DNA from: a virus
IMG/VR virus record: IMGVR_UViG_3300028559_000015
Coordinates: 25,905 to 89,904 of that record
Reading direction: 5' to 3' (one strand)
Length of the DNA stretch: 64,000 nucleotides
Shown: in pieces, positions 15,371 to 63,846 of the stretch
Position numbering within the stretch: the stretch's first letter is position 1
How the letters are laid out: each line of letters opens with the position of its first letter
Translations under genes and position numbers: made by a program
The notes under the pieces: generated by a model
Seen by the model: the letters and a program-made list of their open reading frames with translations, nothing else
The model's database searches: none
What the model was told of the DNA's origin: nothing

Positions 15371-16219
15371 ATGAAAAAGATTTTGGTAACAGGCTGTTCA
15401 GGATACATCGGTTCGCACCTTTGTAAGCTGCTTGAACAGGACTATGAGGTATATGGACTAGATGTTAATAAACCTAAACATCCAGTAAAAGAATTCTTTC
15501 AGGTTGATATCAACAAGCCGTTCAAGACTGACAGAGAGTTTGACGCGGTGGTGCATCTGGCTGCGTTAGTCAACGTCAGTGAGAGTGAGGTGATTCCAAT
15601 CATGTATTACATCACTAACCTTAACGGTACAATGAATGTGCTGAACAAGGTCAAGACGAAAAACTTCATCTTTGCTTCTACCGGTGCAGCAGCACTGTGT
15701 GAAAGCGCATACGGTATTAGTAAGAGAGCCGCAGAGGATGTAGTCACTGAATATTGTACGCGCCACACCTCTACTCCTTATACGATTTTTAGGTTTTATA
15801 ACGTTCTTGGTTCGTCAAGTTATCCACCCACTAACCCGGATGGCTTGATGTACAAGATGATGGAATCTAGTTATACTAGAGAGTTCACGATCTTCGGTGA
15901 TGACTATGACACCTCGGACGGAACGTGTGTGCGTGACTATGTTCACGTTGATGAAATCTGCGAAGCTATCAAGCTAGCAATCGAAAAGCCAGCTAATAAG
16001 GTCGAGTGCTTAGGTCATGGTGTAGGTTACACGGTTAAAGAAATCTTTGACAAGTTCCTAGAAGTGAATGAGGAAGCGTTGTATAAAGACACCGATGAGG
16101 CAATTCTTTGTAAAGTCGGCCCCCGTAGAAAAGGGGACATACCTCATAGCGTACTAAAAGATGTGTCCCCTTATATGAAAAATCTCTATGCTATAGAAGA
16201 TTTACTCAAGCTACCCTAG
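15371..16219 (+). CDS. Sugar nucleotide epimerase (GalE-like, extended SDR)
   Basis: 282 aa. N-terminal NAD-binding GCSGYIGSHL near residue 7, VHLAALVNV near 63, catalytic YGISK near 117 and FRFYNVLGSS near 143, in the order of UDP-glucose 4-epimerases and related dehydratases. The upstream in-frame extension overlaps the glycosyltransferase and is not used; ATG 15371 sits two bases after it. It ends 4 bp into a convergent gene on the other strand. It probably makes the nucleotide sugar for one of the glycosyltransferases. Confidence 0.92.
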   Translation: MKKILVTGCSGYIGSHLCKLLEQDYEVYGLDVNKPKHPVKEFFQVDINKPFKTDREFDAVVHLAALVNVSESEVIPIMYYITNLNGTMNVLNKVKTKNFIFASTGAAALCESAYGISKRAAEDVVTEYCTRHTSTPYTIFRFYNVLGSSSYPPTNPDGLMYKMMESSYTREFTIFGDDYDTSDGTCVRDYVHVDEICEAIKLAIEKPANKVECLGHGVGYTVKEIFDKFLEVNEEALYKDTDEAILCKVGPRRKGDIPHSVLKDVSPYMKNLYAIEDLLKLP

Positions 16220-46850: not shown

Positions 46851-48887
46851 ATGATGAGCGATACTAGAGACCTTTACAAGCTATTCAGAGAGCTTGAGAA
46901 CCAGCACCAAGAAAATGACACTGTGCGTTTGCATGACAGTTTTGATTTGGAACTTAACGAACACTTCGTCATTGAAAGCGGCGTGGTTGGTCTAACAGAA
47001 GACGGCGTTATCATCCAGCTTGACGAAGCAGCACTAGAGTTTCTAGACTTTAATGGTATGCTCACAGAATCTTTGCAAGAAGTTGGTCTTAAAGATCATG
47101 AGCCAAGAAAAGTAGAAGGTGTGTACGGTCCGAAGTCGAAGCCTTTTACTAAGAAGTTCAATAATCTAAAAGCGATGAATAAATTTTTCGACCACCCTGA
47201 TAATGAGGGAAACTATGAAATAGAACGTATTTCAAAGGTCACCGAATCAGTTGAGCTTAACGAGATATCTGACAAAGTGCTGACCAGTTACTTGACTAAG
47301 GCCTGGCCCAAGAGAGGTGAGACTGTCCCCGATAAAAGACTGCCCTTTATGCAAAAGGCCAGGGACGCTGCTGATAGATATTGGGACAAGCAGGGAAAGG
47401 AAAATGACGCTGCTGATGTACAAAAAGTGTTGGCTAGAACCCCCAAAGTTCATGACCTAAGACATATGAGTCATGGGGAAGTCTATGATATCACGCAAAC
47501 TTCCGATGAAATTCGTGACGGCGATGTTCTTCATGTAAAGGGCGGCTCTGCCATCATGTTTAAGGCTTGGCCTACAATGGTAAAAGGCGATAGCAACTCT
47601 CTACACACCTGGGACACAGATGCAGGAAACTCATGGGACGACGAGGAAGTAAGCCACTATAAACGCGCAGTTGATATCGCTAGGTCTTTGCCAATCAATT
47701 CGGCCTCAAGCCGAAGCGGCCGCGACGTAGACGAATCAGCAATAGCAGAAGGTTCTAGTCGAGGAGTTGCAGACGCAATTCGTCATAGAATCCTACACAG
47801 TCACAAAGATGTTGTCGCTAAGTACGGTCCTGTCAGAATCATGGCAGCGATTAGAGATAGAGCAGATAACCTAAATGACTTAGAAGAAATCGGTTCAAGC
47901 GACATCAGCATTTGGACTCGTCAAGTTATCGACGATCTAGAAAAGGGTTATTATGATGACGAAGATACAGTTTCGGTCAAGCGAGATGTATCCGAATCAG
48001 CAGAAGATTCTGACATTTTTGCGAAGATTGTAAAGAGCGATGACCCCTTCCAAGTAATTTACGATGGTATCTCGGGTCACTTCGGTGAAGTGGCACGTAT
48101 CAAACTGCAAGACATCTATGATGATGTCGCTCTTGACCACGGAGATCATCCAGACGATGACTTTGAGGAGATCATTGATCGTATGATTCCTCGCATTCAT
48201 GAACTACATGACATTGGGCTTGATTACTCAGCTTCAAAAAAAGACGAGCTAGATGAAATCAAGAAACTTGCATTTGGACGAGACGCTTTAGAAGAAAATC
48301 CTATGTTGATGGCTTTGGGCAGGTCGGCGGCAGTTGGTGCCGCCCGCGAGCTTGCGGGCAATGTCGATGAAGGATGGGGTAAGAACCTTTTAGGGGCTGG
48401 TGCTGTGGTTGGTGCGCTTGCTGCTATTGCCGGTATCGATAAGATGGAAGCAGATCGGCTAATGAAGACTGAACCACAGCTAGTCACATTGACTCAGATG
48501 CGTCAAGAAGCAGAGCGAGAGGGCGACGATAGTGCTGTCGATGCGCTCGATAACCGAATCAGAGTGACACTCAATTCTATCCGTAATACGGGTCGACCTG
48601 TAATGGGTCCAGACGGTGAGCCAGTTGATCCTAGAAAATCATTGGGTGAAGCAGAATATCAAGGACGAAAGGTTACCCTCAATAAGCCGATGCAGGGCGA
48701 TGTTGCAAAGAGCAAAGTCTATGTCAAGAAGCCTGACGGTAAGGTCGTGAAAGTAAACTTCGGCGACAAGAACATGACTATCAAGAAGTCTAACCCGGCG
48801 CGCCGCAAATCATTCCGTGCAAGACACAACTGTGAAAATCCGGGACCAAAATGGAAAGCAAGGTATTGGTCATGCCGAGCCTGGTAA
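46851..48887 (+). CDS. Large late protein with repeated protease-type sites, 678 aa
   Basis: A mosaic of mainly acidic segments separated by ESV- and ESA-type links: LTESLQEVG, VTESVELNEIS, VDESAIAEGS, VSESAEDSD, LGEAEYQG. Several contain L/I-x-E, the cut pattern of the T4 prohead protease, so it may be a processed head-interior polyprotein. A hydrophobic segment (GAGAVVGALAAIAGI) lies near 525. The C-terminus (GRKVTLNKPMQGDVAKSKVY and NPARRKSFRARHNC ending YWSCRAW) is a basic domain seen in other phages. Late promoter upstream. Confidence 0.7.
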   Translation: MMSDTRDLYKLFRELENQHQENDTVRLHDSFDLELNEHFVIESGVVGLTEDGVIIQLDEAALEFLDFNGMLTESLQEVGLKDHEPRKVEGVYGPKSKPFTKKFNNLKAMNKFFDHPDNEGNYEIERISKVTESVELNEISDKVLTSYLTKAWPKRGETVPDKRLPFMQKARDAADRYWDKQGKENDAADVQKVLARTPKVHDLRHMSHGEVYDITQTSDEIRDGDVLHVKGGSAIMFKAWPTMVKGDSNSLHTWDTDAGNSWDDEEVSHYKRAVDIARSLPINSASSRSGRDVDESAIAEGSSRGVADAIRHRILHSHKDVVAKYGPVRIMAAIRDRADNLNDLEEIGSSDISIWTRQVIDDLEKGYYDDEDTVSVKRDVSESAEDSDIFAKIVKSDDPFQVIYDGISGHFGEVARIKLQDIYDDVALDHGDHPDDDFEEIIDRMIPRIHELHDIGLDYSASKKDELDEIKKLAFGRDALEENPMLMALGRSAAVGAARELAGNVDEGWGKNLLGAGAVVGALAAIAGIDKMEADRLMKTEPQLVTLTQMRQEAEREGDDSAVDALDNRIRVTLNSIRNTGRPVMGPDGEPVDPRKSLGEAEYQGRKVTLNKPMQGDVAKSKVYVKKPDGKVVKVNFGDKNMTIKKSNPARRKSFRARHNCENPGPKWKARYWSCRAW

Positions 48888-49843: not shown

Positions 49844-49851
49844 GATAAATA
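49844..49851 (+). promoter_or_regulatory. Late promoter GATAAATA, 5 bp from start codon
   Basis: GATAAATA, five bases before the SOD ATG. Confidence 0.65.
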
Positions 49852-49856
49852 GTCTC

Positions 49857-50417
49857 ATGAGAGAATTTATCACGCTTCTTGAGGAAAAGTCAAAACCCCA
49901 AGACATAGAAATCATCCCACTTAACTTCACTGAGCGTGAAGTTTCTCCCGTTATGGGGGAAGACACCTTAGACTTGCACTACAATAAGCTCGCTAAGGGA
50001 TACGCACAACGCTACAATGACAAAGAAGGTGACCCTGAGTTTAACTACGCAGGGGCATTCCTACACAATATGTGGTTCCCTCAGTTCAGGGAAGTGAGAA
50101 ACAACAACAAACCAAATGGTCCTATGGTAGGATTCATCAACAAGCACTTCAGTAGCTTCGATGATTTCAAGGACGACGTAGAAGAAGTCGCTATGACGAT
50201 ACAAGGTTCCGGCTGGGTCTATCTAGCTTATGACGGTAAGATCAAGACGATCAAGAACCATGAAGTGCGTGACGACATCTTGCTGCTGATCGACTGGTGG
50301 GAACACGCTTGGGTTCTTGATTATGGGAGTGACAAGAAGAAGTATCTCAAAGAGCTTTGGAAGATCATCAACTGGAACGTGGTTTCTACCCGTTTAGGAA
50401 AATTCTGGTCGTCGTAG
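49857..50417 (+). CDS. Fe/Mn superoxide dismutase-like protein with capsid-targeting N-terminus
   Basis: 186 aa. Metal ligands of the family are all present: H41 in DLHYNKLAKGY, H70 in FLHNMWF, D146 and H150 in IDWWEHAW; GSGWVYLAYDGK near 120 is the usual GSGW. An active superoxide dismutase is likely. The first residues MREFITLLEEKS are not part of a normal SOD; they match the T4 capsid-targeting peptide (E-F-I). The start at 49857 is supported by this peptide and the late box, not the in-frame ATG at 49842. Confidence 0.9.
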   Translation: MREFITLLEEKSKPQDIEIIPLNFTEREVSPVMGEDTLDLHYNKLAKGYAQRYNDKEGDPEFNYAGAFLHNMWFPQFREVRNNNKPNGPMVGFINKHFSSFDDFKDDVEEVAMTIQGSGWVYLAYDGKIKTIKNHEVRDDILLLIDWWEHAWVLDYGSDKKKYLKELWKIINWNVVSTRLGKFWSS

Positions 50418-50600
50418 ATGGACACTAATGATCTAAAAAGACTTGCCGGTATTGTTGATAGTAGAGGTAAGCCTACTCATGCGGAGCCCATTGACCGTAG
50501 CAAGATCACTGCGAAACCCGGCACAGACGAATGGTTCAAAGCAATGTTCCCAGTGAACGATATGCAAATGCCAGTCGGGTTCAGAGGCCGAAAGAAATGA
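50418..50600 (+). CDS. Hypothetical protein, 60 aa
   Basis: Starts directly after the SOD stop: MDTNDLKRLAGIVDSRGKPT, ending FPVNDMQMPVGFRGRKK. Charged and short. Could be a small head-interior protein, as its neighbours. Overlaps the next gene by 4 bp. Confidence 0.6.
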   Translation: MDTNDLKRLAGIVDSRGKPTHAEPIDRSKITAKPGTDEWFKAMFPVNDMQMPVGFRGRKK

Positions 50601-50932
50601 GAGTTAAAGAACTCCTGAATGAGTCTGCTAGACTGACAGCATATCATGCCACTCCTAGAGATAATCTAGGAAGTGTATTACACAACGGATTGGTTCCAAA
50701 AAAGAGCAAGCATTATCCTAGTGCAGGTAAAAGAGTATATCTTTTTCCATCAATCGATGCCGCAAATGAAGCACTTTTGGATTGGTTAGAAGATAGATTT
50801 TCGAATGATATTCTATCATTGTTAAAGATTGACATTCGTGGATTATCTGTATTTGAGGATTTTGATGAACTTTATACTACCGATCCAATATCACCTGATA
50901 GAATTTCAGTAATAGACGAGCATTGGGGATAG
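50597..50932 (+). CDS. ADP-ribosyltransferase-like protein with capsid-targeting-type N-terminus
   Basis: 111 aa from ATG 50597. MRVKELLNESARL carries an L-N-E protease-type site. Then AYHATPRDNLGSVLHNGLVP: the Y-H-x-T, L-x-x-x-G-L and a later VYLFPSIDAANEALLDW correspond to the conserved Y-H-x-T ... G-L start of many small ADP-ribosyltransferases. The E-x-E or similar catalytic Glu is not obvious. T4 Alt is a packaged ADP-ribosyltransferase, so this fits the context. Assignment is tentative. Confidence 0.6.
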   Translation: MRVKELLNESARLTAYHATPRDNLGSVLHNGLVPKKSKHYPSAGKRVYLFPSIDAANEALLDWLEDRFSNDILSLLKIDIRGLSVFEDFDELYTTDPISPDRISVIDEHWG

Positions 50933-50933
50933 T

Positions 50934-51962
50934 ATGAGAGCCAGCGAGTTTATAACTGAATCAACTACTTCAATAGGTGATCAGATTCAATCTCAACTAG
51001 GATTGAAAGTCTTTAACCTCTACGATCAAGGAAATACCATTGTATTAGCTTCATTGGTAGTCGGTAAAGATAAGCAGGGACAGGGTTTGGGTACTAAAGC
51101 TATGACGATGCTGACTGACTATGCTGATGAGCATGGTAAACGCATCACGTTGACTCCTGGTTTACAAGATAAGATACAAGGTACTACTTCTAGGGGTAGA
51201 CTCGTTAAATTCTATAAGAAATTTGGCTTCAAAGAAAGCAAAGGTAGAGATATTGATTACGCACTAGGTGCTGGCAAGATGTATCGTGAACCTAAACTAG
51301 ACGAGATGGCTCTTCCTACCGACTGGGACCCAGCAGCACTTGGGCACGACAAGTCGTTCAAGAGTCGCTTACAATATGCCCTAGAACGTGCCCCTAAGCT
51401 CGGGGGCGGGTCTAGTAGAGTTGCACTCATCATTCCCGATCAGGGGCGTGAAACCGTGCTTAAGATCGCTAAAAACAGGAAGGGAATGGCTCAGAACCAA
51501 GCTGAAGTTGATATTCTCACTGACGGGTATGCAGGGCAGTTAGACATTGTTATACCTATGATTGACTATGACCAGCAAAATCCTCAACCCACTTGGCTTC
51601 AAACCGAAAAAGCAAACAAAGTAAGTGACGCTAAGTTAAGAAAATTACTACACTGTGACAAGACTTGGATGGGCATGATGTATTTCACAAATGCAGTCCG
51701 ATACATGATAGGTGATCGCTCACCGTATCAGCCTGACCTACCCAACATTAAAGAAAGAATGTTTCAGGCGGGTCAAACAGAACAAGATTGGGATACCTTC
51801 ATTGAATACGTAAATGAGGTTGCTACTTTGGTTAGCGCATCGGGTCTTTTAGTTGACGATTTGATGGCTGCATCCAACTGGGGAGAATATAAAGGTAGAC
51901 CAGTTGTTATCGATCTAGGATATACCGAAGCAGTTAAATCAATGTATACAAAAGGACGATGA
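50934..51962 (+). CDS. Two-domain protein: GNAT acetyltransferase and kinase-like, capsid-targeted
   Basis: 342 aa. First residues MRASEFITES match the T4 capsid-targeting peptide. Residues about 30-110 form a GNAT domain: LVVGKDKQGQGLGTKAMTML has the Q-x-x-G-x-G acetyl-CoA loop, then KFYKKFGF. Residues about 130-335: GGGSSRVALIIPDQGRETVL, an E-V-D-I-L helix, and RPVVIDLGYTE look like a small protein-kinase-like fold with D-x-G; catalytic residues are uncertain. Probably a packaged, injected effector. Confidence 0.65.
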   Translation: MRASEFITESTTSIGDQIQSQLGLKVFNLYDQGNTIVLASLVVGKDKQGQGLGTKAMTMLTDYADEHGKRITLTPGLQDKIQGTTSRGRLVKFYKKFGFKESKGRDIDYALGAGKMYREPKLDEMALPTDWDPAALGHDKSFKSRLQYALERAPKLGGGSSRVALIIPDQGRETVLKIAKNRKGMAQNQAEVDILTDGYAGQLDIVIPMIDYDQQNPQPTWLQTEKANKVSDAKLRKLLHCDKTWMGMMYFTNAVRYMIGDRSPYQPDLPNIKERMFQAGQTEQDWDTFIEYVNEVATLVSASGLLVDDLMAASNWGEYKGRPVVIDLGYTEAVKSMYTKGR

Positions 51963-51963
51963 G

Positions 51964-52746
51964 ATGAGAGCTAGAGAGTTTATCACCGTAACCGAAAACA
52001 TTGAAATCCCTATCGGGCGGGGTCGTGCTAATACTTCTGTACCAGACATTTTATATCATAGTTTGCGTGGAAGGGCACTTAACATGTCAGGTGGAATTGA
52101 CGCATATGTACCGGGAAATCCGCAGGAATGGCGTGAACTCGGCTCTAGGTTTAGGCAACCGATACAAGGACTCGTGTATCTTAGTAACAAACCATTGGAT
52201 CAGAGTGCTTTGGCGATTGATGTACACAAACTTAATCCAAACCTACTTAGATATACCGGTCAGTCCGAAGGTTATCTAATATACGGTGACAATATTCCCG
52301 CAGATGCTATCATTGATGTTTCCAAACAAGAAATTGATGAGAACGACGAACCTGTAAGAATCAAAATCGGCGGAACTGACCCTAAAGTTAAATCCTGGAT
52401 TCAAAAAGTATATGACATGTTCCCGCAGCAATTTGGAAACAAGCATGTCATGCCTCTAGGCGGAGAAGGGGACGATCAGGAGTTTGCATTGTTTGTGCTT
52501 GTTCCTAGTTTCAGCAAGCGAGGCGCAGTAGAAGTTAAATGGATTGAAGCCTCTCCGCTCAGACAAGGGGTAGGTGGGAGAGCTATGAAGATACTGCAAG
52601 ACCTAGCACGACAAGACGGTATTGCTCTTACACTTTATCCCTGGGACAAAGGACAAGTATCTCAGGCAAAGCTCATGAAGTTTTATAAGAAACAAGGCTT
52701 CGTGCCAAGAAGCACAGGCTCTAAAAATCTGATTTGGGAACCCTAA
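51964..52746 (+). CDS. ADP-ribosyltransferase-like plus GNAT protein, capsid-targeted
   Basis: 260 aa, start one base after the previous stop. MRAREFITVTENIE resembles the capsid-targeting peptide. N-terminal half DILYHSLRGRALNMSGGIDA, GLVYLSNKPLDQ and YLIYGDNIPADAI has the order Y-H-S, Y-L-S, then a strand, as in small ADP-ribosyltransferases. C-terminal half is a GNAT domain: RQGVGGRAMKILQDLA and LMKFYKKQGF. Fits an injected effector. Confidence 0.6.
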   Translation: MRAREFITVTENIEIPIGRGRANTSVPDILYHSLRGRALNMSGGIDAYVPGNPQEWRELGSRFRQPIQGLVYLSNKPLDQSALAIDVHKLNPNLLRYTGQSEGYLIYGDNIPADAIIDVSKQEIDENDEPVRIKIGGTDPKVKSWIQKVYDMFPQQFGNKHVMPLGGEGDDQEFALFVLVPSFSKRGAVEVKWIEASPLRQGVGGRAMKILQDLARQDGIALTLYPWDKGQVSQAKLMKFYKKQGFVPRSTGSKNLIWEP

Positions 52747-52772
52747 ACCGATAAGTGATTTCAGCCCAAATT

Positions 52773-52780
52773 GATAAATA
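52773..52780 (+). promoter_or_regulatory. Late promoter GATAAATA
   Basis: GATAAATA 28 bp before the ATG of the long fibre gene. Confidence 0.65.
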
Positions 52781-52800
52781 CTATCAATAGGGACTGAGAA

Positions 52801-55800
52801 ATGAGCATAAACGGTCAACAAATAATTAACATCGGATTGCCTAATGAATCTATAGGCAGCGACTCCTTGTACACAGCCTTCAACAAGACGGAAGACAACT
52901 TTACAACCTTATTCACCTGTGCTAGCCCTTATACTAATTTTGTGGCGCTTACTGGTATCAGCGTGAATTCTAACGCTAACGCAGGTACAGTGTCTATCAC
53001 TAATACCGGCGTTACTAATATCATTGCTGGCACAAACATAACAATTAATCAAGCTAACGGAAACGTGACGATCTCGTCAACCGGTGGCGGCAACGGCGGA
53101 GGAAGCGGCACTGTTACTAGCGTAGGTCTTGCTCCGGTATCTACAAGTAGAATCGTTGTAACTAACTCACCTATCGTTTCTTCAGGGAACATCGGCATTG
53201 ACCTAGCAACAACAGGCGTTGTTCCCGGAACATACACTGCCCCTACAGTAACGTTTGATGCATACGGTAGAGTAACTTCTGCTGCTAATTCAATTAGTAG
53301 CGGTACTGTAACAAGCGTGGGAATAATCCCTGGTTCAGGCATCGGAGTTGCAAGCAGCCCGGTTACTACTGTCGGTAACATAACTGTAACAAACACGGGT
53401 GTCGTGAGATTGACTGCTGGACTCGGCATCACGCTTTCAGCACCTAACGGAATTGTTCAGATTTCTGCTGTATCTACAGGAACTGTAACTTCAGTCGGAA
53501 TCAGCAGCAGCACGTTAACCGTATCAAATAGTCCCGTTACATCATCGGGCAATATTACAGTTGAGTTGCCATCAACGATCACGCTCAGTGGAAACATCAC
53601 TGCTGCAAACGGAAATCTTGGAAATCTAGCAACAGCAAATTTCTTCTCAGGAGACGGGGGATTACTCTCCAATCTTCAAGTTCCTGCATTCTCTTATATC
53701 GCCAATGGAACTAGCAATGTAAGAGCTTTAACTAACGGAAACGTTACTGTTAGTGTTGCCGGTAATGCGAACATAGTGGTCGTCACTGGAACTGGCGCCA
53801 ACATTGCCGGCACTGCTAATATCTCAGGCAACGCAAATGTCGGGAACATCGGAGCCTCATCTGGAATCTTTACTGCAAATGTAACAGCCGGAAATGTCTA
53901 TGCTAACTCAGGTACTATTGGAGCTTCATTGCTAACAGGTACGCTAACTACTGCTGCACAACCAAATGTCACTAGTGTTGGTACGTTAGGCTCACTAACT
54001 GTAACAGGTAAAGTAACTGCTGGTCAATTACAAGGTGACGGTGGCAACATCAGTAACATTCAAGGCGGCAACGTGTCCGGTGCAGTAGCTACTGCAACTA
54101 CTGCAACTACGGCTGCAACTGTCACAACTGCGGCACAGCCAAACATCACATCTGTTGGTACGCTGACTTCGTTGACTACTTCAGGAAATACATTCTTGGC
54201 GACTTCAAGCGGTAACGTCGGCATCAACACCACGAACCCCTCCGCTGCCCTGGTAGTTGGTGGCTCTCAGGCAGGAAACGCAGGTCTAGAGGTCCTCCCC
54301 GGTTCGGGGGTAGTCCTTCAGGGCTACAACCGAAGTACAGCTGCCTACACTAGTCTGAACTTAGATGGCGCTACAATCGGGTTCCGCCCTAATGGGTCTA
54401 CTCGTTTAACTGTAGACGCATCCGGTGCTAACGTAACCGGTACCTTGGGGGTAAGTGGGAACGCTAACGTAGCAACATTGAACGTTACAGGTAGAAGTAA
54501 TCTCAACGCTGTAGGTAACGTGTATATCAGCGGAGGTTCTGCTAATCAGATTTTAAAAACTGACGGTGCAGGTAACTTAAGTTGGACTGATCCAAACGGC
54601 GGATATTATTTACATACGCAAGGGTCCGTAAACACGGTTTGGACGGTTACTCACAATCTTAACAGACAATATGTAACAGTTGAAGCAATTGACGCTAATG
54701 GTAATTCGTATACTGGTCGTTATGATTATCCGACAATTAACTATACTAACGCCAATGCGCTGACGATGACATTCACTTCTGCTGTTGCGGGATATGCTGC
54801 TGTCACTGGAGGCGGCACAAACATTAATAGCGTAAGTGTTGGTAACTCGACACCCGGCGGCGTCAACACCCAAGTACAATTTAATGACGCAGGTGTATTA
54901 GCAGGCAGTTCGGGTCTTGTATATAACAAGACTACAGGAACATTAACTGCTACCCTGTATGTCGGATCGGGTGCAAATCTAACTAATATTGCTGGCGGCA
55001 ACGTATCGGGTGCAGTTGCTACTGCAACTACGGCTGCGACAGTCACAACTAATGCACAACCAAACATCACATCTGTTGGTACATTGGCTAATCTCAGCGT
55101 CTCCGGCAATGTAAGTTTCACTGGATCCAATGTATCATTGGGTTCCAACGCAAATATAAGAATTACAGGTGGTTCGTCTGGGCAAGTCTTATCTACTGAT
55201 GGTTCCGGAAATCTAAGCTGGGTTCCTACCGGAACAGCTACAACTGCCGCGACAGTCACAACTAATGCACAACCAAACATCACATCTGTTGGTACACTAA
55301 CATCATTAAGTGTGACGGGCAACATAAGCGGGGCTAATCTAACAGGTAATCATTTCGGTAGTGGGGCATCATTATCAAGTATCACCGGAGCCAATGTTAC
55401 TGGTACTGTCCCTACTGCAAACAACTCTGCATTCTTAGGTGGAACAGCAGCAGCTAGTTATCTGCTAGTAACTGGTACTGGTAGTTCACTGACTGCAATT
55501 GCAGGTGCTAATGTTACTGGTACAGTGTCACAAGCAACGACTGTCATGGGTGCAACTCAAAACAACATTACAACGTTGGGAGCATTGACTACATTAAGCA
55601 CCGGCGCAAACACGACAGCAGGCACGATCACAGGCAATTGGTCGCTCTCTGCTGGTTCAAGATTGGTTGCTACTTACGCTGACTTAGCAGAATACTATCA
55701 AGCCGACGCAGAATACGAGCCGGGAACTGTTCTCATGTTTGGCGGTGACAGCGAAGTTACCCTTGCGGAAGATGCAACGACTAGAGTTGCAGGCGTAGTA

Positions 55801-56043
55801 TCAACAAACCCTGCGTATGCGATGAATTCTGGTTGCCCTGATATCGCAGTAGCAATTGCGCTGCAAGGTCGAGTGCCTTGTAAAGTTCAGGGTATTGTTA
55901 GAAAAGGTGACATGATGATCAGCGCAGGCAGTGGCTACGCAGTAGCTTGTGGCGAGCCTCGTTTAGGCCAAGTCATCGGTAAAGCATTAGAAAACTTTGA
56001 TCTCAATGCCGGCGTGATTGAAATCGTAGTCGGCAGATTATAA
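52801..56043 (+). CDS. Long tail-fibre protein with Peptidase_G2-like C-terminus
   Basis: 1080 aa, dominated by Gly/Thr/Asn/Val-rich repeats of beta-helix type with units such as QPNITSVGTL and TVTGNISGAN. The last 130 residues (ADLAEYYQADAEYEPGTVLM, GVVSTNPAYAMNSGCP, LQGRVPCKVQGIV) match the intramolecular-processing domain of phage fibres and neck-appendage proteins. Likely a receptor-binding fibre, trimeric, cleaved at its end. Late promoter upstream. Confidence 0.88.
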   Translation: MSINGQQIINIGLPNESIGSDSLYTAFNKTEDNFTTLFTCASPYTNFVALTGISVNSNANAGTVSITNTGVTNIIAGTNITINQANGNVTISSTGGGNGGGSGTVTSVGLAPVSTSRIVVTNSPIVSSGNIGIDLATTGVVPGTYTAPTVTFDAYGRVTSAANSISSGTVTSVGIIPGSGIGVASSPVTTVGNITVTNTGVVRLTAGLGITLSAPNGIVQISAVSTGTVTSVGISSSTLTVSNSPVTSSGNITVELPSTITLSGNITAANGNLGNLATANFFSGDGGLLSNLQVPAFSYIANGTSNVRALTNGNVTVSVAGNANIVVVTGTGANIAGTANISGNANVGNIGASSGIFTANVTAGNVYANSGTIGASLLTGTLTTAAQPNVTSVGTLGSLTVTGKVTAGQLQGDGGNISNIQGGNVSGAVATATTATTAATVTTAAQPNITSVGTLTSLTTSGNTFLATSSGNVGINTTNPSAALVVGGSQAGNAGLEVLPGSGVVLQGYNRSTAAYTSLNLDGATIGFRPNGSTRLTVDASGANVTGTLGVSGNANVATLNVTGRSNLNAVGNVYISGGSANQILKTDGAGNLSWTDPNGGYYLHTQGSVNTVWTVTHNLNRQYVTVEAIDANGNSYTGRYDYPTINYTNANALTMTFTSAVAGYAAVTGGGTNINSVSVGNSTPGGVNTQVQFNDAGVLAGSSGLVYNKTTGTLTATLYVGSGANLTNIAGGNVSGAVATATTAATVTTNAQPNITSVGTLANLSVSGNVSFTGSNVSLGSNANIRITGGSSGQVLSTDGSGNLSWVPTGTATTAATVTTNAQPNITSVGTLTSLSVTGNISGANLTGNHFGSGASLSSITGANVTGTVPTANNSAFLGGTAAASYLLVTGTGSSLTAIAGANVTGTVSQATTVMGATQNNITTLGALTTLSTGANTTAGTITGNWSLSAGSRLVATYADLAEYYQADAEYEPGTVLMFGGDSEVTLAEDATTRVAGVVSTNPAYAMNSGCPDIAVAIALQGRVPCKVQGIVRKGDMMISAGSGYAVACGEPRLGQVIGKALENFDLNAGVIEIVVGRL

Positions 56044-56320
56044 ACATTATAGGATTTCAAGAATGATTGATAACATTAAGATTACGAGTTTAACTAACAT
56101 AGGTGCAAATCTATCCTACACATCTATCGTGCCTGTAGTAGATGTGACAGCAAATGTCACCTATAAAGCAAACTTACAGATCATCGGTAATCTTATCCTA
56201 AGCGGGGCAGGGGGTTTAAACTTTGTTCAAGCTGCCCAAGCTAACCTTGCTCAAGCAGTAGTCAACTCTGCACAACCAAACATCACGAGTGTAGGTACAC
56301 TAATCTCACTTGCAGTAACA
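53940..56320 (+). repeat. Fibre repeat family (QPNITSVGTL units)
   Basis: Near-identical units encoding A-Q-P-N-I/V-T-S-V-G-T-L occur four times in the long fibre gene, once in the short one after it, and once diverged (Q-N-N-I-T-T-L-G-A-L). DNA of several units is nearly identical, which favours recombination. This is coding repetition, not a CRISPR. Confidence 0.75.
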
Positions 56321-56536
56321 GGCAACATAAGCGGCGCCAATGTAGTTACTGCGACTACATTCAGGAGCACAGTAGTTGAATTTTCTGCTCTACCAGCAAT
56401 AACACCAGTAGGACAACGAGCGTTCATCAATAACGCAAACTTAGTAGCAGCCGATAATTTTGGCGCAATAGTGGGCGGCGGCGGCTCTAATACTGTACCG
56501 ATCTGGAGCGATGGCACCAATTGGCGCATTGGTTAA
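56063..56536 (+). CDS. Short fibre-like protein, 157 aa
   Basis: Shares the QPNITSVGTL and GNISGANV unit with the long fibre and ends NTVPIWSDGTNWRIG, a typical phage-fibre tip or domain end. Probably a fibre-associated or decoration protein, possibly split from the long fibre by duplication. AAGGATT-like site upstream. Confidence 0.75.
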   Translation: MIDNIKITSLTNIGANLSYTSIVPVVDVTANVTYKANLQIIGNLILSGAGGLNFVQAAQANLAQAVVNSAQPNITSVGTLISLAVTGNISGANVVTATTFRSTVVEFSALPAITPVGQRAFINNANLVAADNFGAIVGGGGSNTVPIWSDGTNWRIG

Positions 56537-56579
56537 TCGATGAACCAAAAATACTATATAATAGATTCACACTTAATAA

Positions 56580-56587
56580 GATAAATA
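56580..56587 (+). promoter_or_regulatory. Late promoter GATAAATA
   Basis: GATAAATA, followed by AAGGAG and ATG 56610. Confidence 0.7.
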
Positions 56588-56609
56588 GAATTAAACAAGG
56601 AGAAATATC

Positions 56610-57362
56610 ATGTCATCACCAATCATCTTAGGACCAGGAATACAAATAGGAGCTGGAATCACGCTGGTAGCAGCACCGCCTCCTCCACCGCCCCCCGCGG
56701 AAGAAGGTAGTCTACTTTTCAACCGTACTAACTATCTCTCTATTCCCAATAATTCAGCATTTGATCAGAACGCCGGTGCTTGGACAGTAGAATGTTTTGC
56801 ATATCCAACTAGTGTCGTCGACTTCGGCGCAACCTATGGGATTTACAATCAAGATTCTATCTCTAGATTTTTGGGAATGTTTTACAGCGGTAGTAGATTT
56901 GGAATTGCACAGAGTAGCGGTGGATTCCTACAGACTTCTGCTTCCTTTTCTCTAAACAACTGGTACCACGTAGCTATGGTCTACAACGGATCCAATGCGG
57001 TAACTTTATATGTTAACGGGAATAGTGCAGTAACTGGAAACCCCGGGGCGATGGCCGCATCTGGAGCAGCTACTTTAATTGGTAGCTTTACCGTTGGAGA
57101 CAATGCCTCACGCTTCAAGGGTAACCTATCAAACTTACGTGTGGTTAAGGGCGTTGCAGTTTATACTGGTAATTTCACAGTACCGACAGCACCGTTAACG
57201 GTTACTCAAAGTAGTGGTACAAATATTTCAGCAATCACTCCAGGACAGACTCAACTGTTATTGAACACCGCTTCTCCCGATTACTTCTTAGATGCGTCAA
57301 CGAATGCGTTTACTGTTACCAATGTTAATTCTGTAGCAACAAGCACTGACAATCCATTCTAA
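56610..57362 (+). CDS. LamG-like virion protein with shared N-terminal tag
   Basis: 250 aa. Starts SSPIILGPGIQIGAGITLVA, then a Pro run, then a concanavalin-type jelly roll: VECFAYPTSV, WYHVAMVYNGSNAVTLYVNG, FKGNLSNLRVVKGVAVY. Likely binds carbohydrate on host or particle. The first 20 residues are shared in form with the next two proteins. Confidence 0.8.
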   Translation: MSSPIILGPGIQIGAGITLVAAPPPPPPPAEEGSLLFNRTNYLSIPNNSAFDQNAGAWTVECFAYPTSVVDFGATYGIYNQDSISRFLGMFYSGSRFGIAQSSGGFLQTSASFSLNNWYHVAMVYNGSNAVTLYVNGNSAVTGNPGAMAASGAATLIGSFTVGDNASRFKGNLSNLRVVKGVAVYTGNFTVPTAPLTVTQSSGTNISAITPGQTQLLLNTASPDYFLDASTNAFTVTNVNSVATSTDNPF

Positions 57363-57377
57363 AGAGGAAGAAATATC

Positions 57378-58130
57378 ATGTCATTAACAGTAGGACTAGG
57401 AATTAACATAGGCGGCGGCATTTCAATTGGTGCTACACCAATTGTACAGTCAGGACTACAACTATATCTAGACGCTGCTGCTGTGGCCAGTTACCCAGGA
57501 TCGGGCACAACCTGGTATGACCTAAGCGGCAATGGCAATGATGTTTCAATGCAAAACTCGGGTGATATCTCTTATACCAGTTCAGGTGGTGGTTATTTCA
57601 CAACTGGAGCCACCGGCTACTTTAGCAAAACTTCCGGCACAAACATACCAACCGGCGGCACTCCGTACACAGTCAGTACATGGGTACAATTTCCCACAGA
57701 CTGGCCCGGCGGCGATACCAATCATACCATAGCACAGATAGGCAGCGTACCTACTTACGATGGCTTAAATACTTTCGTAGCAACCAACACTGGTTATTTG
57801 GCTGTTGGGTGGTTTAATAACCCCGGAGAACCCGAACCACTGATTAGCAATTCTTGGACACCTAGTAGTCCGACTACTAACTGGATGAATGTGGTGAGTC
57901 AGTGGGACGGCGCCACTCGCAACATTTGGTACAACGGTGTGCTACAGGCCACAGACTCGATAGGAACATATCTAGGCAACAATGCAGACATCCTGATTGG
58001 CTTGGACTTTTCAGGATTTGGAAATTATCTACGAGGCAACATAGGCCAGGTGCTGATCTACAATCGTGCATTGAGTCCTTCAGAGTTGAATCAAAACTTC
58101 ACAATCACTAGATCACGCTACGGAGTATAA
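57378..58130 (+). CDS. LamG-like virion protein with shared N-terminal tag, second copy
   Basis: 250 aa. N-terminal GLGINIGGGISIGATP parallels the previous protein. Then LYLDAAAVASYPGSGTTWYD and NWMNVVSQWDGATRNIWYNG and YNRALSPSELNQNF, a LamG fold of a somewhat different branch. Likely a sugar-binding virion part. AGAGGAAG upstream. Confidence 0.8.
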   Translation: MSLTVGLGINIGGGISIGATPIVQSGLQLYLDAAAVASYPGSGTTWYDLSGNGNDVSMQNSGDISYTSSGGGYFTTGATGYFSKTSGTNIPTGGTPYTVSTWVQFPTDWPGGDTNHTIAQIGSVPTYDGLNTFVATNTGYLAVGWFNNPGEPEPLISNSWTPSSPTTNWMNVVSQWDGATRNIWYNGVLQATDSIGTYLGNNADILIGLDFSGFGNYLRGNIGQVLIYNRALSPSELNQNFTITRSRYGV

Positions 58131-58131
58131 T

Positions 58132-59001
58132 ATGGCAACCCCAATACAAATCGGAGCAGGCATGAAATACCCATTCGCTGTGGTCGACGAGACACAAGAT
58201 CCAGGACTACATCGTATTCCCATCGTGCTTAAGCCGGCTAAATTACCGATTGACATTGATAAATTTCATTGGGTTCGTGACAAGCCTGACAGTAGAGATT
58301 ACCTCTATCGACCAACCACTGCCAAAACACCGTCTACCGTTGATTTGAGAGAATTTGCAACACCCGTAGAAGATCAGGGTAGCTTGGGTAGCTGCACGGG
58401 ACAGGCTGTTGCCAGCGCGATTGAATTGATCAACAAGAAAAACAAAATCGTGAACGAAGTTAGCAGGTTGTTCATCTACTACTACGAACGCCTGCTGATT
58501 GGCACTGTCCACTACGATAGCGGGGCATACATCAGAGATGGAATCAAAGCTACAAACCGATGGGGCGCACCATTAGAAAACTTATGGCCCTATAACATAT
58601 CCAAGTTTAGGTCAGCTCCTTCTCGTCCTGCTGTCATGGATGCGTCAAAGCGCAAGGTCACGCGGTATGAACGTGCTGCTAACTTCAACGCCTGCATTGA
58701 TGCACTATCGAACGGGTATCCGGTTATTGTCGGATTCACTGTTTACAGCAGCTTCATGAGCGGCAACTGGTCGCGTACTACTGCTGTCATGCCCTATCCT
58801 AATACCCGCTCGGAGAGAGTCCTAGGGGGTCACGCGGTGCTTCTAGTAGGATACAACAATTCTACTCAACACTTCATTGTCAAAAATAGCTGGGGAACCA
58901 ATTGGGGCGATAGAGGATACTTCTATATGCCGTATCAGGTAATACAGAACACTAGAATGAGCGCAGATTTTTGGGTTATCAAAGGTGTAAATAACCCGTA
59001 A
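58132..59001 (+). CDS. Papain-like cysteine protease with shared N-terminal tag
   Basis: 289 aa. Peptidase C1-type: Cys in QGSLGSCTGQA near residue 87, His in LGGHAVLLVGY near 235, Asn in FIVKNSWGTNWGD near 250. N-terminal PIQIGAGMKY repeats the tag of the two LamG proteins. Possibly a virion protease that acts on host surface or matures fibres. Starts one base after the previous stop. Confidence 0.92.
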   Translation: MATPIQIGAGMKYPFAVVDETQDPGLHRIPIVLKPAKLPIDIDKFHWVRDKPDSRDYLYRPTTAKTPSTVDLREFATPVEDQGSLGSCTGQAVASAIELINKKNKIVNEVSRLFIYYYERLLIGTVHYDSGAYIRDGIKATNRWGAPLENLWPYNISKFRSAPSRPAVMDASKRKVTRYERAANFNACIDALSNGYPVIVGFTVYSSFMSGNWSRTTAVMPYPNTRSERVLGGHAVLLVGYNNSTQHFIVKNSWGTNWGDRGYFYMPYQVIQNTRMSADFWVIKGVNNP

Positions 59002-59068
59002 AGGCCACGAATGGAACTTCCTTAGCGATCTTTCGTGAGCGAATTCTTCAATGAATTCATCTTCTTAG

Positions 59069-60427
59069 CTAGTTCTTAGCGATCTTCTTAGCGATAACAG
59101 AAAACAGAGGGCCCGTCACGTATCTATTAAGGGATTGATTCATCATCCCGTTTTGCATCTCTTTGATCATGTCGGGTGTCAGGTTCCTAGCTCTCCAACC
59201 GTTTTTAAGCAGTAGATGAACTTCTACAGGGTCGTCACCTTCTAGTTTTTGAATGGCTAGCATACGGTTGCGTCCTTCGTGCCCGGAGATGCTAGCGGGA
59301 TGAGTAAAGTCATCTTCTTCCCAGTCAGCAGGGATTTTGACATCTAGAAAAGGTGCGCCCAATGCTCCGCCATTTTTCAGGTGTTGCACGATATACTCTA
59401 CGCTTCTAGGTTCATTAAGTGGTAAAGCTAGATTCAAGAATGTGCTAGGCTTCATCAGAACACGCAAGCCAAAATAATCAACATTTTGATTATAAGGAAC
59501 TGAACCCAAACCTTCTACGTTGTCTACTTTGTACTCTGACAAGTTTTCCGATAATGTGTAAAATAGGTGATTGCCAACAGTTGCTACATGATCAAGATTG
59601 GCATTCCATGCCGGATCGACATCTGTAGTATGATAGTACACTGCACCGTTAGTAGGATCGGACGCTCTACCAGCTATGATCTTTCTTGCAAGGTCTTTAG
59701 CTAACAACCAAGCTTCGTAATCCATGTAATCCCCGGAATTTTTAAACTCAGCAAACCATTCATCAAAGGGAGTGCCATCTGGAGATTGTCTAAGATTAAT
59801 CAGTCTATCATACTGCAACATTTCTTTAATACGATCTCTATTAGGATCACCCTCATTCCAGCAACTGAACTGCTTTGGTTTGAGCGCGACACCGCGAATG
59901 CCATAACCAAACCTTTTCATATTTGCTTCGGCGCGGTTCTTGATGACGTTCCCTATAGCTAGCATCCCGATAGCGCCATGACTGCGAGCTTCACCCCACA
60001 TGGTCTGTGCTAATATGCTTACGTCAGGGTTTTCAGCGGGAGCAACAGTAGAAGCTACTGCCGGCTTAGGTCTAACTTCGGGAGCAGTCTTAGGTTGCAT
60101 CGTGTTCGGTCCGCCGGCAGCCAAAGCACCGGCGACACCGATAGCACCTAATGTTTTCTTCCAGTCTTCTTCTAATACTGATTCTTTCAATGCCTGCTTG
60201 AGGAAGTATGAGTCGATGGCGACGGTATCCCCGACTTTTACTGCTGTCTTCCTTCCAGGAATTACTTCAGCAGCAACGATCTTTATCTTGTATTTCCCTT
60301 TAGGAGAAACATCAAGTATCTTACCGTTGAGAACAGAATAATCTGGATAGTTCTTAGTGAGGGTGAGATCAAGCACTCTACCCACTTCTACGGACCTGTA
60401 TTCAGTTATAAATTCAAATGATCTCAT
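59069..60427 (-). CDS. SleB-type hydrolase with ParB-like C-terminal part and capsid-targeting N-terminus
   Basis: 452 aa from ATG 60427. MRSFEFITEYRSV matches the capsid-targeting pattern with an I-T-E site. Residues about 140-295 follow the cell-wall hydrolase (SleB/Hydrolase_2) order: ILAQTMWGEARSHG (with the Glu) and DPTNGAVYYHTTDVDPAWNA. C-terminal 130 residues include SISGHEGRNRMLAIQKLEGD, a ParB-like GxEGRxR segment. May be carried in the head and help DNA entry. Confidence 0.75.
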   Translation of the reverse strand: MRSFEFITEYRSVEVGRVLDLTLTKNYPDYSVLNGKILDVSPKGKYKIKIVAAEVIPGRKTAVKVGDTVAIDSYFLKQALKESVLEEDWKKTLGAIGVAGALAAGGPNTMQPKTAPEVRPKPAVASTVAPAENPDVSILAQTMWGEARSHGAIGMLAIGNVIKNRAEANMKRFGYGIRGVALKPKQFSCWNEGDPNRDRIKEMLQYDRLINLRQSPDGTPFDEWFAEFKNSGDYMDYEAWLLAKDLARKIIAGRASDPTNGAVYYHTTDVDPAWNANLDHVATVGNHLFYTLSENLSEYKVDNVEGLGSVPYNQNVDYFGLRVLMKPSTFLNLALPLNEPRSVEYIVQHLKNGGALGAPFLDVKIPADWEEDDFTHPASISGHEGRNRMLAIQKLEGDDPVEVHLLLKNGWRARNLTPDMIKEMQNGMMNQSLNRYVTGPLFSVIAKKIAKN

Positions 60428-60431
60428 AATT

Positions 60432-61796
60432 TCACCATCTTCTCGGCCGAGATATCGACCGACTGGCCGTCCAAGTACCACCGTCTCTTTTCATGCTGAT
60501 GTTTCTCTTAACAAAGTCTGCCATTCCACCATCGTTCTCTCGTCTTGGAGGAAATTCCTTCTCTATGTTTGCAGCAATAACATCTGTTAGATCAGCAATA
60601 GAGGGTAGCATACTGCTAAAATCTTCAGTATCTACTAAACGGTACAAATGCCTCTGTAAATATTCTGCTGAAGGCCGAATTGCGTCTTGCATTCCAATAC
60701 TAAATCTGCGAGCCTCGTCATTCCACCTTATATAATCGTCACCGGCGTTCTGAACTTTATCCCAATCAATTTCACCGTCATCGTCGCCATATTGTTTTTG
60801 CATTTCACCGTAGTAATAATCGTCATTCTGTTCCCATTCAAATATTACTTCCCACATCTTCTCTTGGGCAATCGTTGCGATCTGATCAATGTACGTTTGC
60901 AACACTTCATCAGGTGTGAACTCTATTGATTCTTTTATTTCAGGTTCATTCTTATAAAAGAATTCAAGTAATTCTGGAAATCTTTTAGTCAGTAAATGAT
61001 ATAGAGATATCTCAGAATCATTCTCGTCCATGAATTGACCTGTAGGGAAGTGCAGTTGGTATTTCTCTTTGTCATACTCTGGCTTCTTTGGAATAATAAT
61101 ATACAGCTTACCTTGCCGACTGTAATGATTAAAGTAGTTCTCACCTTTAGTAGCAGCAGTGCACCAGTGTGTTTCAGCACCGTAGCGGCAAGCAGCGGCT
61201 TCATCGTGTGGAACAACGACAAGTACATCACCGTTTTCAAAGACTTTAGATGCTTGACCTTTTTCTTGTACTTTTTTCTCAGTGTTATCTATGGCATCCA
61301 GATCATAGCCCAAACGCATTGTTTCTTCAAAGTCGGTATAAGACTTGAAAACGTTGATGTCATTGTGTTCTGGACTAATCATACGTCTTCTTTTACCAAT
61401 ATCGTAGATGCCCAATATATTTCCACGATTTAAGTCTTCTAACTTGACATCACCGCTGACATACATTCTTGCTAACCAAGGGGTATATATTTTATTTGGA
61501 GTAGGATCTTTTGTTTCGATGACACTCAGCAAGTCTTCTAGAAATCTCGCTCTGACTGCAGGGTCTTTGATGAGGGGGCCGGACTTTTCTCGGTAATCAG
61601 AAGATGAAGCATCTTGATCACCTGGAATAGTTACGGGTCTATCCATCCGAAGACTTATCAGACTGCTTCGCACCTGATCAAGAGGACCCACATCACCGCG
61701 GTCGGCAATTACAGCTTTTTCAGCTTTCTCACTTCCAGAGATTGTCTGAGCGGTTTTCTTACGATCATACTCAAACAGGAATTCCCGGGCCCGCAT
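60432..61796 (-). CDS. Capsid-targeted protein with WCTA motif, 454 aa
   Basis: Starts MRAREFLFEYDRK (E-F-L-F-E). Centre: VLVVVPHDEAAACRYGAETH followed by W-C-T-A-A, then FNHYSRQGKLYIIIPKK, and a F-P-T-G-Q-F. These Y-G-x-x-T-x-W-C-T-A and Y-S-x-x-G-x-L strands define a domain I cannot name; the next gene has a variant. The C-terminal half is helical. Likely a late, packaged protein. Confidence 0.7.
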   Translation of the reverse strand: MRAREFLFEYDRKKTAQTISGSEKAEKAVIADRGDVGPLDQVRSSLISLRMDRPVTIPGDQDASSSDYREKSGPLIKDPAVRARFLEDLLSVIETKDPTPNKIYTPWLARMYVSGDVKLEDLNRGNILGIYDIGKRRRMISPEHNDINVFKSYTDFEETMRLGYDLDAIDNTEKKVQEKGQASKVFENGDVLVVVPHDEAAACRYGAETHWCTAATKGENYFNHYSRQGKLYIIIPKKPEYDKEKYQLHFPTGQFMDENDSEISLYHLLTKRFPELLEFFYKNEPEIKESIEFTPDEVLQTYIDQIATIAQEKMWEVIFEWEQNDDYYYGEMQKQYGDDDGEIDWDKVQNAGDDYIRWNDEARRFSIGMQDAIRPSAEYLQRHLYRLVDTEDFSSMLPSIADLTDVIAANIEKEFPPRRENDGGMADFVKRNISMKRDGGTWTASRSISRPRRW

Positions 61797-61804
61797 GATT
61801 AGAA

Positions 61805-62809
61805 TTATCCTCTATCACGGCCGAATAAATCATCCAACTGTTCCGGAGTAGCATCATCACCCTCTGACTTACTGTTGTATGCAATTGGATAATTACGCTT
61901 GATTCTTTCAATTTCTGCAGGGATGTTCCACCCGCCTCGGGCGATCCCTGCTTGGTCAGATGCGTTCTTTAATTCTTCTGAACGTGACGATAGTGCATCG
62001 GCGATTTTCTTCATCAAGCCAGGAAATAAATCAGCGAATTGTTCTTCACCTACACGATAATCTTGTACAGCATTCTTTAATTGACCAGTTGAAGTGTGCA
62101 TCTGCCACTTGCCGTTATTATCGTTCATGTTATTTTTATCAATAATACTGATGATAGGTCCATCTCTTGAATAGCGTTCGAACCAAGTTAGACCAGTACT
62201 ACTTCCTGTGCAGAACTGCCCTTGTGCACCTTCAGCATTATTAAAGATATAGCAAGAGCCGTAGTTCAACGGAACAATAACATAATATCTGTCATCATCA
62301 ATAAGAACGACTTGCTTGGCATCCTTTTTCATAGCTGCTATCTTTTCAGCATTGGCAATTTTTCTTAATGCTTCACGATACTTTTCTTTACGAACAACAC
62401 CTTGTAGTTGGGTAATAGTTGAGAAACGATTAAAATCTTGATCCGCAGGGTCAAGCAAGTTGCGAACACTCAATGCTTTCCAAGAACCCAAAGCATCCCC
62501 GCCTTCTCCGTTGATGTCTTCGTAGTCGTTAGCGTGATTGACGTATAACTTTGTTAGCCAACTATCAAACTTACCGTCTCTTGACAAGTCTCCGTAGTTA
62601 GTGTTAGCTAGTGTTCTATCGATCAGTTCACTCCATAGCTTGACTACCTCTTCGTCGGTTGGCTTAGGACCCAATCTTGCTAGCGCAGGACCAGGAAAAG
62701 TGTGATCGTGCTTCACGGCGAGTGCCAGCATTTTTGCCATCTTAGGATCTTTGAGAATCTTCTCTCCTGGATTGGCTTCTGATAAGTTAGTTCTTGATAA
62801 TTGTTTCAT
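61805..62809 (-). CDS. Paralogue of the WCTA-type protein, 334 aa
   Basis: Starts MKQLSRTNLSEANPG with an L-S-E site. The domain follows the neighbour: YYVIVPLNYGSCYIFNNAEG, Q-F-C-T-G, FERYSRDGPIISIIDKNN, HTSTGQLKN. The aromatic W before C-T is replaced by F. Suggests duplication followed by divergence. Function unknown. Ends nine bases before the previous gene's start. Confidence 0.7.
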   Translation of the reverse strand: MKQLSRTNLSEANPGEKILKDPKMAKMLALAVKHDHTFPGPALARLGPKPTDEEVVKLWSELIDRTLANTNYGDLSRDGKFDSWLTKLYVNHANDYEDINGEGGDALGSWKALSVRNLLDPADQDFNRFSTITQLQGVVRKEKYREALRKIANAEKIAAMKKDAKQVVLIDDDRYYVIVPLNYGSCYIFNNAEGAQGQFCTGSSTGLTWFERYSRDGPIISIIDKNNMNDNNGKWQMHTSTGQLKNAVQDYRVGEEQFADLFPGLMKKIADALSSRSEELKNASDQAGIARGGWNIPAEIERIKRNYPIAYNSKSEGDDATPEQLDDLFGRDRG

Positions 62810-62820
62810 GTCTAGCCTTC

Positions 62821-63846
62821 TTATGGGTGCAGCAATGATTGTTTTAGGAAATTCATAAGAGTAATCAGTTTCTTTTGATCACCGGCTGCGATGTCGGCGA
62901 TCACTTGGCTCACACCACCCATGCTTGTCGGCTGATTTCTACTATATCTGTCTACGCCTAAAGCAAAATTACCTGTTTGTTCTGGATAATAATGACTTGC
63001 TGTCAAATACAATGCAGGTCTTAATCTTTCTTTTATTCTAGAGGGGACATCATTTGGATCGCTGAGTAATTCCTGTTTTACCTGCTGTAAACCATTTAGG
63101 ATTGCTATCTTTTTTGACACTTTATCGTAAGCATCATTTTTTAATGCCATGCCGACGACACCCTTAACATCCGCGATTGATTGCTCTATATATCTCAGGT
63201 AAACAGGACGCAGTTTACGTAATATTACTTCAGTGTTGTGGGCTGAACCTGCATTCGGATCTAGCGTGTTTGGGTTGACGACGACCTCTCTGCGCCCCTT
63301 ACGCAGCGCACGTTTTTTGTCTACCTCTCCTGTTCTATTATCAGAAGCCCCGCGATATGCCTGCCTACCCTGTCCGATCGCACCCCATTGGGCTGTGATT
63401 TTGCCGATTCGTTCTTTGATTTCTTTAAACAAAGTATTAATACTAGCGTCGGAATCTCTTGTTATGCCCTCTTTACTAGACAACATGGCTTCCCATTTAG
63501 AACCATTCCACTTAACTGCACCCATGCCGTCTTGGCCTTGAATGATTACATAGTTGGGTGATCGACTTTTGATATCTGCCCAGGTTACTTTTTCTAGTTT
63601 TTCCCATCTAACATCATGCGGCATAGCAAATTCTTTGTGTACCTTCTGGACGAGTGCATCAGCATATGGACCGCGACGAATGCCGGAAAGGTCAGGGATA
63701 GTTGAATCTTCGTCAAGAATTTCTCTAAGAAGATGGGTTATTGTGTAATGAAGTGCTTCACGAGCAGGATCTTTATCAGCGACCTTTCTAGTCACCGCTG
63801 GCTTGAGGATTTTGATGTTTTCTTTGAATATTTCTGTGCTTCTCAT
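62821..63846 (-). CDS. Hypothetical capsid-targeted-like protein, 341 aa
   Basis: Starts MRSTEIFKENIKIL with a weaker targeting-like pattern. Contains WADIKSRSPNYVIIQGQDGM near 110, K-W-N-G-S-K-W, and a basic helix (KKRALRKGRREVVVNPN). The C-terminal part is helical. No domain recognised. Context suggests a late internal protein. Confidence 0.65.
   Translation of the reverse strand: MRSTEIFKENIKILKPAVTRKVADKDPAREALHYTITHLLREILDEDSTIPDLSGIRRGPYADALVQKVHKEFAMPHDVRWEKLEKVTWADIKSRSPNYVIIQGQDGMGAVKWNGSKWEAMLSSKEGITRDSDASINTLFKEIKERIGKITAQWGAIGQGRQAYRGASDNRTGEVDKKRALRKGRREVVVNPNTLDPNAGSAHNTEVILRKLRPVYLRYIEQSIADVKGVVGMALKNDAYDKVSKKIAILNGLQQVKQELLSDPNDVPSRIKERLRPALYLTASHYYPEQTGNFALGVDRYSRNQPTSMGGVSQVIADIAAGDQKKLITLMNFLKQSLLHP

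Follow-up and report, generated by a model that had tools for sequence, protein, structure and literature searches.

Predicted T4-type internal head proteins with short capsid-targeting leaders, and putative processing sites at their domain joins, in a phage known only from DNA

A group of genes on an 89.9 kb viral contig very likely encodes T4-type internal head proteins that form a modular set, with a short capsid-targeting leader at the start of each; targeting, cleavage, ejection and action on the host are inferred. The stretch studied comprises bases 25905-89904 of the contig (64,000 nucleotides), which will be referred to as the window. The leaders found here are 9-13 residues long, end in a motif of the type [IL]xE and resemble the N-terminus of the T4 internal proteins, and the same leader was found on many unrelated cargos. 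The source is likely a jumbo T4-type phage, with the contig representing a fragment of its genome.

Leader genes and the N-terminal pattern

A preliminary description of the window had claimed that at least five proteins start with M-R-x-x-E-F-[IL] or MREFI, which held (genes at 49857, 50934, 51964, 59069-60427(-) and 60432-61796(-)). Its further claim of L/I-x-E near residues 8-14 in additional proteins, including those starting at 17478 and 33102, held as well, as [ILF]xE is present at residues 9-13 in the products of 50597, 61805-62809(-), 62821-63846(-), 16216-17478(-) and 33102. The features are as follows, a slash marking the predicted cut.

16216..17478, minus strand: GP88-family protein (PF17338, 3.7e-31) with MDIRNILNLITE/N
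33102..34628, plus strand: protein starting MRDIIDRLELISE/STGL, the motif being present in orthologs too
46851..48887, plus strand: 678-residue protein with 20 [ILVMF]xE sites, GATAAATA box at 46823
49844..49851, plus strand: GATAAATA box, like the T4 late promoter, upstream of the superoxide dismutase (SOD) operon
49857..50417, plus strand: SOD with leader MREFITLLE (leader bases 49857-49883); Pfam Sod_Fe_C 2e-24, matches to PDB SODs
50418..50600, plus strand: conserved small gene (MDTNDLKRLAGI..), situated after the SOD and before the next leader gene
50597..50932, plus strand: leader protein MRVKELLNE/S, cargo motif YHAT..NLGSVLHNGLVP, ADP-ribosyltransferase-like by motif only
50934..51962, plus strand: leader MRASEFITE/S, GNAT (Pfam Acetyltransf_1 6e-7), then a second domain, kinase-like by motif only
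51303..51305, plus strand: Glu124, internal site PKLDE/MALPTDWD where the GNAT domain meets the second one
51964..52746, plus strand: leader MRAREFITVTE/N, C-terminal GNAT-like domain
59069..60427, minus strand: leader MRSFEFITE/Y, multi-domain cell-wall hydrolase protein (Hydrolase_2 1.9e-18)
59534..59536, minus strand: Glu298, internal site ENLSE/YKVDNVEG of the hydrolase protein
60432..61796, minus strand: leader MRAREFLFE/Y, PcfJ-like protein, homolog of EST35_0205 of phage PA5oct
61805..62809, minus strand: leader MKQLSRTNLSE/A, diverged relative of the PcfJ-like protein
62821..63846, minus strand: MRSTEIFKE/N protein without assigned function

The cargo claims for SOD, GNAT (6e-7) and cell-wall hydrolase (2e-18) were upheld by Pfam. 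The SOD shows the features of an Fe/Mn enzyme, with a C-terminal domain carrying the D.WEHA motif and metal-binding motifs that aligned to PDB SODs. The labels ADP-ribosyltransferase-like and kinase-like, which had also been claimed, are motif readings only, without profile or fold support in the window proteins; the 50597..50932 protein gave no significant Pfam match. The 50934 protein matches phrog_10691 and phrog_4301, and structure prediction supported its GNAT part only (Foldseek best E 0.011). No match was obtained with the predicted structure of the PcfJ-like protein (60432..61796). Orthologs of 61805..62809 have a variable leader but keep [IL]xE/AN, and some orthologs of 62821..63846 retain MRxxEL without the cleavage Glu. 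The 46851..48887 product is possibly a head-core or internal protein that may be cut many times, as inferred from sequence alone.

The contig has two further leaders (MKINELLNE and MRAREFISE) shortly before the left end of the window. The gene at contig bases 24330-25040 (L009 4431-5141) encodes MRAREFISE, a very basic stretch and then GESVNE/APEIELARRLPSL; a homolog on L005 has a HELVH metallopeptidase-like motif at its end. ClpX-, ClpS- and ClpP-like genes are located at 29866-31062, 31698-32006 and 34700-35281, all with homologs in PA5oct, whose ClpP was detected in the virion.

The leader pattern is specifically enriched at N-termini. In 18 related contigs, with open reading frame starts called by a simple rule, the general leader was present at 70 of 395 M-K/R N-termini (17.7%) compared to 605 of 39,211 internal positions (1.5%). 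Likewise, MR-x0-2-EF[IL] occurs at 6 of 12 MR-starts on the contig, and after only 37 of 16,878 internal Arg residues (0.22%; P about 1e-13). Sixty-seven leaders have exactly nine residues (consensus M-[RK]-[AI]-x-E-[FLI]-[LI]-x-E), and the residue after them is mostly S, Y, N, A, R or G. Leader-bearing cargo of the 18 contigs forms about 28 clusters, which include a few chance matches, e.g., a Clp ATPase; Clp-like MQ.SPEIENIIE starts were dropped for this reason. Between relatives the leader stays constant and the cargo changes (SOD, GNATs, cell-wall hydrolase, a T7-type kinase in a relative, metallopeptidase-like and PcfJ-like proteins).

Related SODs are encoded by at least 595 IMG/VR stretches, and of 69 SODs examined most have kept the leader MR[DE][IL]I.LLE. 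The next sizeable gene after the SOD, which usually starts within the SOD stop codon, bears a leader in 31 of 64 loci and belongs to at least eight cargo clusters, so that the position behind the SOD is a variable cargo slot. The gene of 60 residues at 50418-50600 recurs beside leader genes. The RLAG[IL] motif of its product is also found at the C-terminus of the scaffold protein gp22 in relatives (G008, PA5oct), which suggests that the small protein may provide a second prohead-binding route.

The GATAAATA box was observed eight times in the window compared to 2.9 expected, each copy being followed within 70 bases by a predicted gene of the same orientation; these genes include the SOD operon, the GP88-family gene (box 17502-17509) and the 46851 gene. 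The relative G008 (333 kb) has ATAAATAC and GATAAATA as its most frequent upstream octamers. Unlike GATAAATA, TATAAATA itself was not enriched. The resemblance to the T4 late promoter makes late expression of the leader operons possible, an inference without expression data. The box upstream of the SOD ends five bases before the start codon and no Shine-Dalgarno sequence is present, with several other SOD loci being alike; a late SOD transcript may thus be leaderless.

T4-type head genes in relatives and homologs in virions

The leaders align with MKTYQEFIAE of T4 and retain its Phe, which serves targeting, as well as the Ile and Glu of the processing site. As controls, the T4 record yielded MKTYQEFIAE/A for IPII and IPIII, MAKINELLRE/S for gp24, and FLTE/A at the end of the gp23 propeptide. 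Truncation and mutation work on T4 has assigned residues 4 and 7 to targeting and residues 8 and 10 to cutting, which is prevented by Asp at residue 10 (PMC9026906); the leaders described here retain the counterparts of residues 7, 8 and 10. They have the hallmark of T4-type internal proteins: a short propeptide at the N-terminus that carries T4-like targeting residues and ends in [IL]xE.

A second hallmark is the presence of both gp21 and gp23. Pfam Gp23 and Peptidase_S77 gave no match on the 89.9 kb fragment or in its near relatives, and a longer relative was therefore required. G008 encodes a gp23 capsid protein and a gp21 prohead protease in a T4-like gene order (portal-67/68-21-22-23), so that this hallmark is seen in the relative but not on the fragment. 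G008 gp23 contains four [IL]xE, all within residues 1-43 and the last being KQLLAE/SSAG, and its scaffold gp22 contains 4.9 [IL]xE per 100 residues compared to 1.0 for the proteome, as expected if gp21 cuts at [IL]xE. Downstream of gp23 (174187-175903) this relative has three tandem leader genes, and the one tested matches a T7-type kinase family. As the relatives belong to the gp23 type, import into a phage nucleus was discounted as a role of the leader.

Among cultured phages, bases 40000-64000 of the window have no close match and the leader proteins of the contig only distant ones. In a close relative, the DNA polymerase has its nearest counterparts in jumbo T4-type phages (Phosso, Atu_ph07, Rak2-like). 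Almost no such leaders were found in a 50 kb head region of the Rak2-like phage CBB and in the polymerase flanks of Atu_ph07 and Phosso, indicating that the system is not universal among jumbo T4-type phages. Alishewanella phage Slicko01 has an eight-gene run (L123 3939-9609), most genes starting like MKIDxLYESLLEE and several carrying YHST or YHAT motifs; this cultured phage probably has a similar leader set, as judged from its sequence alone.

Virion evidence comes from the cultured phage PA5oct, for which ESI-MS/MS detection is marked in the database record. The SOD homolog EST35_0261, with the N-terminus MNDSIKKYISIAE/AASS, and the PcfJ-like homolog EST35_0205, with MKLFEVFTLYE/DK, were both detected in the virion, whereas the cell-wall hydrolase homolog was not among the detected proteins. 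Leaders are present in 5 of 93 detected proteins compared to 2 of 324 undetected ones (P 0.007). This test is small, and its pattern was chosen post hoc; looser or different leader patterns showed no or weak association with the virion proteins (P 0.80, 0.015, 0.54 and 1.0). Since the pattern was settled after looser ones had failed, the test is merely supportive.

The preliminary reading of the leaders as T4-type capsid-targeting sequences was supported by every test run, although packaging and cutting in this phage are inferred. For the injected effector arsenal it had proposed, packaging is strongly inferred, but injection and effector function are not shown, and presence in virions could be checked via the PA5oct homologs only. 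It had overlooked the conserved SOD with its variable slot as well as the internal sites considered below.

LxE sites at domain joins

To locate joins, the leader was stripped from each leader-bearing protein and the cargo aligned inside longer proteins, yielding 106 non-redundant joins. In 53 of them, representing 16 of 25 families, [ILVMFY]xE was found exactly at the position of the leader's own xE. Control joins from proteins without leaders carried LxE in 15 of 782 cases, and the per-position background was 2.2%. The join counts share ancestry and are thus not fully independent. Phe at P4 is present in 45 of 67 leaders but in none of the 53 joins, which agrees with the separate residues for targeting and cutting seen in the T4 mutants. 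Leader cargo contains less [IL]xE than expected (0.75x, P 7e-4) and more [IL]xD (1.28x); reversed or shifted motifs showed no depletion there.

Two such joins of the window, PKLDE/MALPTDWD in the GNAT protein and ENLSE/YKVDN in the hydrolase protein, connect domains that elsewhere occur alone with their own leaders. The former aligns with the stand-alone leader forms MKQVRLSQFLSE/APLPDDWD and MRAQEFVDE/MALPADWD. The hydrolase protein consists of the leader, a small domain, LEE/DWKK with a hydrophobic stretch, the cell-wall hydrolase, LSE/YKVDN and a C-terminal domain, the last of which stands alone as MRANEFIVE/YKVDNRNG (G014) and MRAHEFLTE/HQMDNVDG (G005). For the 51964 protein, a fused homolog (L221) has its join exactly at VTE/NIEIPIG.

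Joins that lack Phe at P4 but keep P3 and P1 fit selection on cutting. We lean towards the interpretation that the joins are processing sites and that other [IL]xE sites are avoided; cutting is inferred, with indirect support from the joins and the depletion. A bolder reading, to which we give slight preference, is that these proteins are effector polyproteins, in which two to three host-acting enzymes share one targeting sequence, the prohead protease separates them inside the capsid, and cargo is swapped via slots such as the one behind a virion-packaged SOD; here, both cutting and host action are inferred. Alternatively, and affecting the polyprotein part only, LxE at joins might be an uncut relic of leaders after fusion of neighbouring genes. 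Tandem pairs of neighbouring leader genes that could fuse do exist (G014, 37128 and 37805). However, this relic explanation appears unlikely, as the targeting part is gone at the joins (P4 Phe 0/53) whereas P3 and P1 are retained, and elsewhere in the cargo [IL]xE is underrepresented.

The joins also bear on the possibility that the leader is another N-terminal signal, e.g., a translation or stability tag or a sequence for docking elsewhere, with a coincidental likeness to T4. The motif is short and degenerate, and the gp21 gene is not on the contig. Nevertheless, this explanation is made very improbable by the exact match to the T4 targeting and processing residues, by LxE kept at internal joins, where a tag for the N-terminus would have no effect, by the detection of homologs in virions, and by the occurrence of this motif in the relative's gp22 and gp23.

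Proposed mechanism and known systems

According to the internal head protein model, the leader proteins would be made late in infection, and the leader of about nine residues (M-R-A-x-E-F-[IL]-x-E) would bring them into the core of the prohead while its shell is still open. A gp21-type prohead protease would then cut after [IL]xE and free the cargo, multi-domain chains being cut at the LxE joins into two or three separate mature proteins, and the freed cargo would be ejected together with the DNA. Late synthesis, core entry and cutting by gp21 are assumed because of the strong homology, ejection because of the T4 precedent and the type of cargo. The SOD might possibly limit oxidative damage early in infection, which is a guess. 

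One rival model accepts that the leader targets the head and is cut, but assigns the proteins to assembly or DNA condensation rather than to the host. In T4, gp67, gp68 and gp22, which share the motif, belong to the core; one leader cargo opens with a strongly basic stretch (RKKKRSKKKSTRG), and many cargos have no known domain. Catalytic cargo domains (SOD, GNAT, hydrolase, T7-type kinase, amidoligase-like) and the swapping of cargo among close relatives, unlike core proteins, argue against it, and we regard it as unlikely.

If the proposed delivery of internal proteins is correct, the nine-residue tag would list, from sequence, the proteins delivered into hosts by many uncultured phages, including those of unknown function. 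What is in T4 a system of a few small proteins would comprise dozens of enzymes, and one particle might deliver a whole toolkit, with the head protease separating effectors built as a single chain. Superoxide dismutase would then be carried in phage particles.

Several parts of this picture have precedents. T4 internal proteins are packaged, cut and injected, and act on host defence or the host RNA polymerase (PMC3012670, PMC9026906, PMC12373910); they are known anti-restriction factors (PMC12373910), and it has already been stated that T4-like phages possibly load varied proteins via the targeting sequence (PMC9026906). T4 Alt is cut by gp21 at both ends, at ITE-6 and LTE-619, so that an injected protein with an internal cut is already known (PMC5694885). 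In the literature searched, which did not cover most subscription papers, no account was found of a leader set in jumbo phages, of SOD in such a role, or of prohead-protease sites at effector joins.

Polyvalent proteins (Iyer et al. 2017, PMC5512222) are likewise multi-domain proteins with GNAT, kinase and peptidase domains; they contain the same GNAT family, and some cargo families, this one included, are found again in giant polyvalent proteins for which injection is assumed. The proteins described here share the feature of several disparate domains per chain (GNAT plus a second domain; the hydrolase between others). In the relevant passages of that paper, however, the release mechanism proposed is by built-in peptidases rather than by a prohead protease, and a T4-type leader is not mentioned. 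Pfam revealed no embedded peptidase domain in the leader proteins of the window, so that this mode of release is not supported, and LxE at the joins suggests a protease that is not part of the chain. Inner-body or ejection proteins of phiKZ and SPN3US are also sets packaged into the heads of giant phages and processed by the prohead protease. SPN3US propeptides mostly exceed 100 residues (PMC5694885), a length not met here, where the leaders comprise about nine residues and the phage is of the gp23 type. In comparison to ordinary Fe/Mn superoxide dismutases, the SOD has a phage leader and a relative found in a virion.

Among the closest counterparts are T4 IPI, IPII, IPIII and Alt, where unrelated cargos likewise follow one conserved leader, about 10 residues in length and with [IL]xE at its end. 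Compared to T4, the present set is far larger and enzyme-rich, combines the SOD with a variable cargo slot, and includes multi-domain proteins with LxE at their joins; the exact position of LxE at the joins of fused leader-bearing cargo is the new element.
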